DNA from: Phycisphaerae bacterium
Lineage (GTDB): Bacteria > Planctomycetota > Phycisphaerae > UBA1845 > PWPN01
Assembly (NCBI GenBank): GCA_012729395.1
Contig: JAAYDF010000141.1
Location: 1-64,000, forward strand
Direction: 5' to 3'
Length of the DNA stretch: 64,000 nucleotides
In this document: piece after piece, positions 30,450 through 51,094 of the stretch
Layout: the number at the start of each line of letters is the position of its first letter
Position numbering within the stretch: the first letter of the stretch is position 1
Made by a program: the position numbers and the translations under genes
The notes under the pieces: generated by a model
Database searches by the model: none
Seen by the model: the letters and a program-made list of their open reading frames with translations, nothing else
Told to the model about the DNA's origin: nothing

Positions 30450-30518
30450 CTCTATCAACCCATGTTTAGCGGTGCCGCTTGCGGTATCTCCAACAACCCA
30501 TGTTTAGCAGTGCCGCTT
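30443..30518. repeat. 38-bp tandem duplication over the HtrA gene 5' end
   Basis: Copies 30443-30480 and 30481-30518 differ at four positions. The first copy contains the first codons of the HtrA gene (ATG at 30449-30447). Both contain GTTTAGC followed by GTGCCGCTT, the left end of the family B palindrome. Confidence 0.75.
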
Positions 30519-30550
30519 GCGGCACCGAGTCGCAAGCGACACGGCTAAAC
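30502..30550. repeat. Family B bipartite palindrome, full copy
   Basis: Bounded by inverted ends GTTTAGC and GCTAAAC. Inside are GTGCCGCTTGCGGCAC and a second, smaller palindrome GTCGCAAGCGAC. It lies between the NPCBM gene and the HtrA gene. It resembles the full copy at 51042-51094. Confidence 0.75.
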
Positions 30551-30577: not shown

Positions 30578-31777
30578 TCATCGCATCACCCGGGCCTCCG
30601 CCCAGTTGGCGTGGTCGCTCACGTCGAGTTCCTCGCCGAAGTCCACCGCCAGTTCCAACGTGCGACCGCCGGGGATCGGCACGCTGACAGCGCGGACCGG
30701 ATCGCTCCCGGTGACCGGCCCGCTGTTGAAGGTCTCCTGTCCGTCGACCAACACGCGGAAGATGACATGACCCCGCGGTCGCACGGCCGAGTCGATGCCG
30801 ATCGCCGCCGCGAACCGGGTGTAGTCGCCTTCAAGTCGATAGGTCAATCGCGATTGCGAGTGCACGCCCAACCCGCGTTCGAATGTCTGCTCCGCGATGC
30901 GCAGTGGCCCGTTGGACACCGAGCGGTTGCGTCGCCATGGCCAGCGGGTGACGCCGAACGGCTCAAACTCATAGGCGACCGGCTCCAGCTCATCGAGGAA
31001 AAGCACCCGATCGTTCCGCACACGCAGTTCGGCCAGGTCGGCGACCGGCAGCAGAACCGTCGGCCCAGCGGCGAGCTTGAGGCGAAGCTGTCGCTCGTCG
31101 CCATGCTCAAGCGTGCCGCACCAGACGGTGCCGTCAGACAGCGTGCACGCCATCGGCGGCGGTTGCTCACGGAGCAACCCGGCGGCAAAGACGACGCCCA
31201 GCACTCGATCCGCTCGCAACGGCACCGACCGGTCTCGCCAGCGGAACGACCCGCCCTCCACGTGCAGCGACTCGGTCGCCCCACGAAGGCTCTGCACCTT
31301 CTCGCCAGCGATGACCAGCAGGGTATCCTGCGAAGTCTCGCGAGCGGCCAGGGCCTCGTCGAAAGCCTGCAACGTCGCCGGCTCGCGATGCGCCAGGAAG
31401 CGCATCGCCGCGAGACCGTTCAGCGGCAGTGTCAGCCGATCCGCCAGACGGGTCTGCAGCTCGACGTGCCTTGGGTCGCCGCCGGTGACGCGGGCGGCCA
31501 TCCGGCCGGTGTCTTTGAGGTAGACCAAGAGCGGCCATTCATCCTCGGCAGGCAACGACGCGGGCACGGGCGAGGCGTCCCAACGGATCGACATGACCTC
31601 GTCGCCGGCCAGCGCAACCTCGCCATCGCGAGTCGTCAGCAGAAAACCATGCTTCGCGTCATACCCACGCCAAACGCCGGCAGCTGTGCGGCCATCCAAG
31701 CATGCAACCCGAACCTCGGGCGAGGCCGCCGCGGCCAGCACCGCAACCATCGACATCAATAGGCAGAAGGCACCCAC
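30578..31777 (-). CDS. Exported NPCBM-domain protein
   Basis: 399 aa with an N-terminal export segment (MGAFCLLMSMVAVLAAAA). The C-terminal about 150 residues match the NPCBM/NEW2 carbohydrate-binding-type fold: RGLGVHSQSRLTYRLEGDYTRF..IGID, FRVLVDGQETFNSG and the closing DHANWAEARVM. The central part contains repeated short beta elements (LRLKLAAGPTVLLPVADL) of unknown fold. GTG at 31777 is the start, with AGGAG 9 bases upstream overlapping the previous gene, whose stop is 3 bases away. This indicates tight coupling to the helical-repeat protein. Glycan or peptidoglycan binding is inferred from the domain only. Confidence 0.8.
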   Translation of the reverse strand: MGAFCLLMSMVAVLAAAASPEVRVACLDGRTAAGVWRGYDAKHGFLLTTRDGEVALAGDEVMSIRWDASPVPASLPAEDEWPLLVYLKDTGRMAARVTGGDPRHVELQTRLADRLTLPLNGLAAMRFLAHREPATLQAFDEALAARETSQDTLLVIAGEKVQSLRGATESLHVEGGSFRWRDRSVPLRADRVLGVVFAAGLLREQPPPMACTLSDGTVWCGTLEHGDERQLRLKLAAGPTVLLPVADLAELRVRNDRVLFLDELEPVAYEFEPFGVTRWPWRRNRSVSNGPLRIAEQTFERGLGVHSQSRLTYRLEGDYTRFAAAIGIDSAVRPRGHVIFRVLVDGQETFNSGPVTGSDPVRAVSVPIPGGRTLELAVDFGEELDVSDHANWAEARVMR

Positions 31778-34795: not shown

Positions 34796-34846
34796 CGCCC
34801 CCGGATTGGACTCGCGTATCAGGCATCTGCTCATCACCGATCTGTC

Positions 34847-35052
34847 ATTCGCGGTCCGCAATCCGCCATCTCCAATCTGTAATCTGCGATCTCCAATCTC
34901 CAATCCGCGATCCGCGATCTCCAGTCTTCAATCTCGAATCTGCGATCTCCAATCTCGAATCTGCAATCTCCAATCCTGAATCTCGAATCTCGAATCTGCA
35001 ATCTCCAATCTTGAATCTCCAATCTCCAATCCGCGATCCGCGATCCGCGACC
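34847..35052. repeat. Degenerate AATCTC-type short-unit array
   Basis: About 205 bases made almost wholly of short words such as CAATCTC, CGAATCTG and CCGCGATC repeated with variation. There are no unique spacers, so this is not a CRISPR array. It separates the coiled-coil gene from the methyltransferase gene ending at 35134. Together with 34796-34846 and 35053-35133, which show no gene, it fills the gap. Confidence 0.75.
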
Positions 35053-35133
35053 CCTCTCACCTTATCCGTCCGCCGCCGCCGCCCTAGAATCCCACCGCTT
35101 TCTCCCGTCGCCCGCACTCCGGTTGTCTTCGCC

Positions 35134-47689: not shown

Positions 47690-48655
47690 TCAAGCAGGTG
47701 GATGGTTCGTCTCCTCCCACGCCGCGATCACGCGGTCGGCGAGAGTCTCGGTGGCGTCGGCCTCGGTGGCGTCAACCCATCGTACATCGGGAATGCGGCG
47801 AAGCCAGGTGCGCTGACTCTTAGCCAGACGCCGGGTGCCGATTTTGATCTGCTCGATGGCCTCGTCGAGCGAGAGTTCTCCGTGGAAATGCCGGATGAGC
47901 TCGGCGTAACCGACGGCTTGGGCGGCCTGCTGGCCGATCCCGCCCGGCCCGGCCAGCAGCGACCGAACCTCGTCGGGCAGCCCGGCGACCATCATCTGCC
48001 GTACGCGGGCGTTGATTCGCCGGTTGACCTCCTCCTTCGGCCGACGCAGTGCGACCACCCGGCAATCATACTGCGAGCAGGATTGCTCCCACTGCGTCTG
48101 GAGCTCGGTGATCGGCCGGCCGCTGAGATGGTAAACCTCCAGGGCCCGCTCGATGCGCCGCAGATCGTTGGCGTGGATGCGTTGAGCGGCCTCGGGATCG
48201 ACCTGGGCAAGTTCGGCGTGCAGGGCGGGCGTTCCCTCGCGCTCCGCCCGCTCGCGGAGCGTTCGCCGGAATGCCGGGTCGGCGGCCGGCCCGTCAAACA
48301 CCCCCGACAGCAACCCGCGCACGAACATCATCGAGCCGCCCTCGGCCACAACGGGCAGATCACGGCTCGCGATATCACGGATGGCTCGGTCCGCGTCACC
48401 AACAAATCGGCCCAAGTTGTACTGGTCGAAGGGCTCGATGATGTCGATCAGGTGGTGGAAGACGTCGCGGCGTTCTTCCGGCGTGGGCTTGGCCGTCCCG
48501 ATGTCCATTCGCCGGTAGATCTTCATCGAGTCAATGGAGACCAGTTCGGCCCCCAGTTGTCGGGCAGCGGCGAGGGCCACGGCACTCTTGCCGCTCGCGG
48601 TACAGCCGATCAGCAGGTTGACCCGAATACGCACGTTTGTATTCCCGTGGCCCAT
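47690..48655 (-). CDS. miaA: tRNA dimethylallyltransferase
   Basis: Adds a dimethylallyl group to A37 of tRNAs reading UNN codons. About 321 aa from ATG at 48655. P-loop GCTASGKSAVALAAARQLGAE, SIDSMKIYRRMDIGTAKPTPEE and DIIEPFDQYNLGRFV are family hallmarks. The start codon lies inside a family B half-repeat (48651-48689), and no Shine-Dalgarno precedes it. A GTG 13 codons later is an alternative. It follows the rnf operon on the same strand, 75 bases after rnfB. Confidence 0.92.
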   Translation of the reverse strand: MGHGNTNVRIRVNLLIGCTASGKSAVALAAARQLGAELVSIDSMKIYRRMDIGTAKPTPEERRDVFHHLIDIIEPFDQYNLGRFVGDADRAIRDIASRDLPVVAEGGSMMFVRGLLSGVFDGPAADPAFRRTLRERAEREGTPALHAELAQVDPEAAQRIHANDLRRIERALEVYHLSGRPITELQTQWEQSCSQYDCRVVALRRPKEEVNRRINARVRQMMVAGLPDEVRSLLAGPGGIGQQAAQAVGYAELIRHFHGELSLDEAIEQIKIGTRRLAKSQRTWLRRIPDVRWVDATEADATETLADRVIAAWEETNHPPA

Positions 48656-48689
48656 CCGTGTCGCAAGCGACACGGTTGAACCGGCTGGG
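48651..48689. repeat. Family B half-copy 1 (over the miaA start)
   Basis: 39 bases: CCCATCCGTG, then TCGCAAGCGACACGG and an AACCGGCTGGG end. Its CCCAT supplies the miaA ATG on the minus strand. Confidence 0.75.
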
Positions 48690-48705
48690 CAGCCCAGGTC
48701 GTCTG

Positions 48706-48744
48706 CCCATCGGTGTCGCAGGCGACACCGCTAAACCGGCTGGG
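48706..48744. repeat. Family B half-copy 2 (over the rnfB stop)
   Basis: Same 39-base unit as 48651-48689, period 55, five differences. On the minus strand it supplies the rnfB TAG stop and the last codons (Gln-Pro-Val). Confidence 0.75.
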
Positions 48745-49591
48745 ACGCCGCCGCCTCCTCCTGGCGGAGCATTTCCGCGTACTCGGGTTTGGGCTTGCCG
48801 AAGTACACCATCGCGTCGGCCGGGCACTTGGCGATTACCTTCTCGCGATCCTCCTCGCCGGCGTAGTGCTCGTAGTCGATGTACGCCAGGTTGTCCTTGA
48901 TTTGGAACATATCGGCCAGCAACTTCTGGCACATCTTGCACCCGACGCACCCGACGGTGCAGACCTGCTTGACCAGACGGGCAGGCTCCTTGTTCGAGCA
49001 GGCGATGACCAGCATGCGCTCCTGCTTGAAGGGGATGCTCTCGATGATGTTCCGCGGGCAGGCCCGTACGCACGCTCCGCACCCGGTGCACTTGGCGTAA
49101 TCGATGACCGGCAGGCCGTCCTCCATCCGCATCGCGCCGTAGTTGCAGCTGGCCACACAGTCGCCGAAACCCAGACAGCCGTAAATGCACCCCTGGGTCA
49201 CGCCGACGACATTGGCCTCGACGCAGCTTCGTACGCCGTCGTATTCCACCACGCCCTTTTTGTCTCCGGTCTTCGCGCCGCAGTGGATCACCGGGCGGTA
49301 GGGGTAGCTCTGCACGACCTCGATACCGAGGATCTCGGCAATGCGGGCGGCGGTCTTGAAGCCACCGACGGGACAGCCGTCACAAGCGACGCGCTGTTCG
49401 ACGACCGCCTTGGCGAAGTCGGCACATCCGGCAAACCCGCACCCGCCGCAGTTGGCCGCCGGAAGAGCCTCGGTCACCGCCGGGATGCGAGGATCTTCCT
49501 CGACGCGAAGCTTCTCCTTGGCGATGCCCAGCAGGGTGGCGAAGACCAATGTGATGCCGAAGAGCACGGCGGCGGCCAGTAAAAGCGTCAT
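48731..49591 (-). CDS. rnfB: Rnf complex subunit B (multi-cluster ferredoxin)
   Basis: Accepts electrons from ferredoxin in the membrane Rnf complex. 286 aa with an N-terminal membrane helix (2-22). Predicted iron-sulfur binding: ANCGGCGFAGC (Cys48, 51, 56 plus Cys70/73), Cys135/139/145/149, Cys168/171/174/178 (CTGCGACVRACP) and Cys211/215/218/221. A GGAGAG site precedes the start, 45 bases after rnfA. The C-terminal SQPV is encoded by a family B repeat. Last gene of the rnf operon. Confidence 0.94.
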   Translation of the reverse strand: MTLLLAAAVLFGITLVFATLLGIAKEKLRVEEDPRIPAVTEALPAANCGGCGFAGCADFAKAVVEQRVACDGCPVGGFKTAARIAEILGIEVVQSYPYRPVIHCGAKTGDKKGVVEYDGVRSCVEANVVGVTQGCIYGCLGFGDCVASCNYGAMRMEDGLPVIDYAKCTGCGACVRACPRNIIESIPFKQERMLVIACSNKEPARLVKQVCTVGCVGCKMCQKLLADMFQIKDNLAYIDYEHYAGEEDREKVIAKCPADAMVYFGKPKPEYAEMLRQEEAAASQPV

Positions 49592-51041: not shown

Positions 51042-51094
51042 GTTTAGCGGTGCCGCTTGCGGCACCATCCCGGTCGCAAGCGACCGGGCTAAAC
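51042..51094. repeat. Family B bipartite palindrome, full copy
   Basis: 53 bases bounded by GTTTAGC and GCTAAAC. It contains two perfect palindromes, GGTGCCGCTTGCGGCACC and CCCGGTCGCAAGCGACCGGG. It lies in the rnfG-rnfE gap, where it could form two stem-loops in the operon transcript. Confidence 0.8.

Follow-up and report, generated by a model that had tools for sequence, protein, structure and literature searches.

The closest described counterparts of the repeats reported here are the GTAG-tagged REPs (Di Nocera et al. 2013, PMC3733652), which, in the parts of that account drawn on here, are short palindromes with loops of 2-4 nt and complementary stem variants that form head-to-head dimers and clusters and lie after genes, between codirectional or convergent ORFs. 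According to section 15 of the same work, flanking ORFs often take their TAG stop from the end of a REP, and for many REPs seen at the N-terminus of an ORF translation may begin further downstream, which would leave the REP extragenic; some are falsely placed within the reading frame. Typical REP families use GTAG or GTGG, and CnGA occurs in a rare class from Planctomycetes and others, according to portions of PMC6006769 and PMC8266576; these portions also describe REPtrons, in which a Y1 transposase with an HUH pair and a single Tyr carries identical palindromes on both sides. In E. coli, REPs less than 16 nt away from a stop codon stall ribosomes and lower translation, as stated in a passage of PMC12306157 that cites earlier work.

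The boundary between rnfB and miaA in a Phycisphaerae bacterium, studied within a window of 64,000 nt (the whole stretch of DNA analysed), carries repeats that share the palindrome, loop size, stem variants, dimers and genomic placement outlined above for the GTAG-tagged REPs, including the donation of a TAG stop to one neighbour and a probably false position inside the N-terminus of another. Unlike the elements described in that part of PMC3733652, they bear the tag GTTTAG(C), and tandem pairs are as common as head-to-head ones. The linked transposase has the composition and the flanking palindromes given for REPtrons in the portions of PMC6006769 and PMC8266576 cited, whereas the foot here is TTAG or TAGC, depending on stem closure. 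As with the stalling REPs of E. coli in the passage of PMC12306157, a hairpin stands one base after the rnfB stop; in contrast to these, it belongs to another organism and another REP family and is known from sequence. A literature search for a GTTTAGC REP family found no description of one. The rnfB/miaA finding is a known REP phenomenon in a new REP family, both halves of it being in print as general REP behaviour. The apparent oddity of this gene boundary is thus ordinary for REPs and warns against annotating starts inside them, whilst the family adds to Phycisphaerae and related Planctomycetota a REP with an unusual foot motif and a likely transposase.

The repeat pair and the end of rnfB

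The explanation that best accounts for the whole feature, and very probably the correct one, is that two REP elements (RAYT-associated palindromic repeats) lie in the rnfB–miaA spacer. Two copies, 55 bases apart at the gene boundary as the preliminary description had proposed, are indeed present on the minus strand (window 48651-48690 and 48706-48745), each of 40 bases and identical to one another at 34/40 positions. The features concerned are:

47690-48634, minus strand: miaA, 314 aa (IPPT, 267 bits), with its homology-supported start, GTG 48634-48632, outside the repeat
48651-48690, minus strand: REP copy A, 40 nt; core 48657-48681, with a decayed tag, GTTCAAC, and an intact hairpin, 48657-48674
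48653-48655, minus strand: in-frame ATG in copy A, previously taken as the miaA start and probably unused
48691-48705, minus strand: spacer of 15 nt between copies A and B, of a sequence not common to the flanks
48706-48745, minus strand: REP copy B, 40 nt; core 48712-48736, with the tag GTTTAGC at 48730-48736 and the hairpin at 48712-48729
48731-48733, minus strand: rnfB stop codon TAG within the REP tag GTTTAGC, the hairpin starting one base after it
48731-49591, minus strand: rnfB, 286 aa, with Pfam FeS/Fer4 domains; its last codons, TCC CAG CCG GTT TAG, lie within copy B

One frame of the GTTTAGC tag contains TAG, and this serves as the rnfB stop codon (48733-48731); the repeat also supplies the last sense codons, Ser-Gln-Pro-Val, of which Gln-Pro-Val had been claimed along with the stop. 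Both copy A and copy B are flanked by CCCAGCCGG and GATGGGC, sequences missing from the other window copies. Throughout the window, the core pattern GTTTAGCNNNNNCGCTTGCG has 8 matches at up to 3 mismatches, whereas 100 shuffles averaged 1.88 and never exceeded 5.

The end of rnfB was compared with that of other RnfB proteins. A search of 61 genomes gave some match in 30, from which ten close relatives (64-77% identical) were used. RnfB is conserved in these to about KPxPEYAxxL, ~7 residues before the repeat; beyond this motif, the tails are short and unrelated and have different stop positions in 10/10 relatives. No REP core was found at the rnfB ends of these ten, and the sole pattern matches at relatives' rnfB loci (L074 and L076, with 3 mismatches) lie >450 bases from the rnfB end. 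As the tail is unconserved, variable in length and REP-free in the relatives, the repeat therefore appears to have replaced, or been appended to, a dispensable tail. The claim that a mobile repeat has become coding sequence thus holds for rnfB, but does not extend beyond this dispensable end. A second RnfB-like gene, 54% identical to that of the window, is present at G000:C23:8756-9532.

The arrangement probably arose in two steps. Insertion of a REP at the very end of rnfB would have placed the tag GTTTAGC there, and a local tandem duplication of 40 bp would then have yielded the second copy, a step suggested by the two flanks shared by copies A and B and absent from the other window copies. 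We infer the insertion, rather than see it, because the genomes searched, none of which is from the same genus as the source, yielded no close relative whose rnfB site is empty. The movement of the REP may be attributed to a Y1 transposase flanked by repeats of this family (see below).

A dispersed palindrome family and a linked transposase

The genome (5.74 Mb, 370 contigs) contains 30 matches to the core at up to 1 mismatch, compared with 0 for the reversed control, and these many dispersed copies, as expected of REPs, make up 20 sites spread over the window's contig and 14 further ones. The core comprises 25 nt, namely GTTTAGC and a hairpin whose commonest form is GGTGTCGC-TT-GCGACACC. Its stem was analysed in 31 copies, 26 of them distinct (the 30 matches and the copy at 48662, which has two mismatches), across which the consensus of the tag is GTTTAGC. 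Changes on both sides of the stem number 28, versus 9.7 in shuffled sets, and the covariation score is 0.504 versus 0.206, with 0/500 shuffles as high; within the stem, G-C alternates with C-G and U-A with C-G, and sliding the stem partner by one to three columns abolishes the covariation. The hairpin is of 7-8 bp with 94.5% of cells paired, in keeping with the palindrome of 20-40 nt and short loop that characterize a REP. The C just ahead of the stem is invariant, and in 21/31 copies a G following the stem is able to pair with it.

Copies are single, dimeric or tandem, and neighbouring pairs comprise 10 head-to-head, 10 tandem and 1 tail-to-tail, with 6/10 of the head-to-head pairs spaced by 28-29 nt, as in the opposite-orientation dimers of REPs. 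Two further groups in the window illustrate this:

30464-30550: REP trio (30464 plus, 30502 plus, 30526 minus strand), past the stop of the gene at 30578-31777
51042-51094: head-to-head REP dimer in the rnf cluster (cores 51042-51066 plus, 51070-51094 minus strand), between rnfG and rnfE, both named by eye

With neighbouring genes called by a home-made codon model that was trained on the window and scores several of these neighbours weakly, 19/20 sites are flanked by codirectional genes and the remaining one by convergent genes, with no site between divergent ones, which is the mainly extragenic, downstream placement of REPs. The unpaired GTAG (or GTGG) foot of the GTAG REP superfamily is absent from the consensus, GTTTAGC, and the family is not filed under that superfamily because its foot is GTTTAG(C). 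The ~30 copies found at the stringency used are few for a REP family and count, like the tag, against calling the repeats REPs; nevertheless, the GTTTAGC palindromes are, from their sequences, best read as a REP family. Outside the source genome, the loop variant GTTTAGCNNNNNCGCGTGCG is present in 11/101 genomes, and a scan of named genomes returned 25 stretches, 23 of which come from MAGs labelled Phycisphaerae, Sedimentisphaerales or Planctomycetota, the remaining two being labelled only bacterium and Verrucomicrobiales, respectively.

The genome has 11 Y1_Tnp matches. Eight Y1 loci were fetched (L001-L008), and the GTTTAGC repeat lies near one of them only (L006, on C148); none of the genome's own GTTTAGC REPs was found beside the other 7 (L001-L005, L007 and L008). 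The C148 gene has one REP copy upstream and an opposed pair downstream. Its Y1 domain (PF01797) scores 37.7 bits against a cut-off of 23, and His106, His108 and Tyr173, invariant in 12 aligned Y1 sequences, provide the HUH pair and single Tyr of a RAYT; we take these three to be the catalytic residues of the transposase. A phmmer sequence search of this protein against PDB chains gave no match at E 0.001. Its best relative among 101 genomes, in G100, is 54% identical and also REP-flanked, and a transposase remnant in G042 is likewise flanked by these REPs, so that a gene bordered by the genome's own REPs, another mark of a RAYT, is seen at C148, in G100 and, as a remnant, in G042. We read the GTTTAGC repeats and the C148 transposase as a REP/RAYT system, and the mobile character ascribed to the repeat in the preliminary description is supported by the dispersal of the palindromes and by their link to a Y1 transposase gene. 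At three loci of relatives (L145-L147), other Y1 genes lie between hairpins of a different type, whose feet resemble GAG, which hints that the order has several REP/RAYT systems.

Genes end inside a REP at 3/20 sites. Besides rnfB, these are, at C325, a gene named by eye as lysS-like, which ends Val-TAG (GTT TAG) in GTTTAGC, and part 1 of uvrA at C148, which ends in the TAA of a reversed copy, and in all three a hairpin adjoins the stop; the tag offers a stop in one frame per strand, TAG forward and TAA in reverse. Among 78 distinct cores from the source genome and related loci, 2 strict cores give a called gene its stop (TAG/TAA), the lysS-like case being a decayed copy outside the strict pattern used for this count, and stop donation is thus occasional. 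Over all loci, no enrichment of gene stops at the TAG of the REP was found. It is improbable that the family serves as a cassette combining stop and roadblock, fixing gene ends and tuning translation termination in Phycisphaerae, with its transposase kept at one old locus. At rnfB itself, the hairpin one base after TAG 48733-48731 falls within the 15 nt of the stop that mark translation-regulating REPs. By analogy with those of E. coli, a modest effect on rnfB expression is plausible; that the hairpin in the rnfB mRNA may slow terminating ribosomes, and so trim rnfB output, is put forward tentatively, as one possibility on the less likely side.

The miaA start and alternative readings

In the preliminary description, the repeat supplied both the rnfB stop and the miaA start, the latter as ATG 48655 in copy A. 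This ATG, in frame with miaA, precedes any other ATG of that reading frame, but comparison with relatives places the start outside the repeat and leaves the double role unlikely. MiaA was found in 57/61 genomes and 29 relatives' loci were fetched, of which 28 were counted, L046 being left out because its miaA is truncated by the contig start. At the column of GTG 48634-48632, 14/28 relatives have ATG or GTG, and 17/28 have a start codon no more than one codon away, whilst 5/28 offer no start codon further than three codons upstream of this column. Just 2/28 have a start codon where ATG 48655 aligns (L045, where a stop codon follows, and L067), and the six residues from ATG 48655 to GTG 48634 are 0-14% identical to the query in relatives. 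On account of these start columns, missing upstream starts and unconserved intervening residues, miaA most likely starts at GTG 48634, 16 bases beyond copy A, and the repeat pair would be extragenic for miaA; mis-annotation of this kind, with a start placed inside a REP, is described in the section of PMC3733652 cited above. The comparison that had been proposed as decisive, of MiaA N termini in relatives lacking the repeat, gave the same answer, the N terminus being kept and beginning at the GTG downstream of the repeat. The remark that miaA has no Shine-Dalgarno sequence is nearly true, with a 3-base match at both candidate starts, but it is uninformative since 21/44 scored genes of the window also match at 3 bases or fewer, counts that rest on longest-ORF starts and are correspondingly imprecise. 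In the 29 relatives' miaA loci (the match and up to 1.5 kb on each side) rnfB was not found, and the rnfB–miaA adjacency is therefore not conserved.

Two further readings were considered. One takes the hairpins, instead of being mobile repeats, for regulatory or terminator structures that arose in place in the rnf operon, and in its favour are strong local folding and another dimer within the rnf cluster (51042-51094): as DNA, the repeat strand folds with z -4.5 (0/200 shuffles as stable) and, as RNA, the region folds moderately better than shuffles (z -2.0; 9/200 as good). Such an origin is nonetheless very unlikely, given that the 25-nt core recurs at 20 sites on 15 contigs and is linked to a transposase gene, that it is missing from the rnfB ends of the ten relatives, and that a scan of 48400-48900 for promoters and terminators found neither a T-run terminator match nor a promoter match. 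The repeated palindromic units might also recall a CRISPR-like, tRNA-like or known structured RNA element, the least credible reading and one of almost negligible probability: an Rfam search of the window returned two tRNAs only, with nothing for the repeat; there is no Rfam or cas association; the spacing is irregular; and the copies are dispersed in both orientations. A pair of REP elements accordingly remains the preferred reading.

The split uvrA and other repeats

The GTTTAGC-family REPtron (L186:1929-9001, on C148) occupies the spacer of a split, tandem-fused uvrA, of which part 1 ends at the linker between the UvrA halves and part 2 consists of the second half and a second UvrA. The spacer holds a RAYT or its remnant at the matching place in G100 and G042, and REP cores also occur there in G003 and G016. 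Breakage of uvrA by the REPtron was considered and rejected: in 30 loci (L201-L230, including the source genome and fetched from 30 of the 101 genomes with a match), the first uvrA unit stops after its first half in 29/30, the sole read-through being the continuous gene of L218 (G013), so the split is older than, or independent of, the REPtron. For 13/30 loci, no second part was recovered or it falls outside the locus; where it was found, the spacer measures from -3 to about 1000 nt.

Other repeats were encountered alongside the GTTTAGC family. In G014 (L112), which has no match to the C148 RAYT, there are 47 matches of a different family, nearly all ATTTAGCCGGCTCGCTTGCG among the matches listed, a repeat of related appearance whose foot has A in place of G. 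The window has a low-complexity run at 34825-35064, built of 7/14/21-base units like AATCTGCGATCTCC, and copies of a second REP-like family, GCTTGCCGCTTCGCGG, at 1302, 4431, 32949, 34779, 41914, 44259 and 47655. This second family has 72 matches in the genome at up to 1 mismatch, with 0 for the reversed sequence, and one of its copies lies inside a second RAYT-like match, C31:2013-2567.
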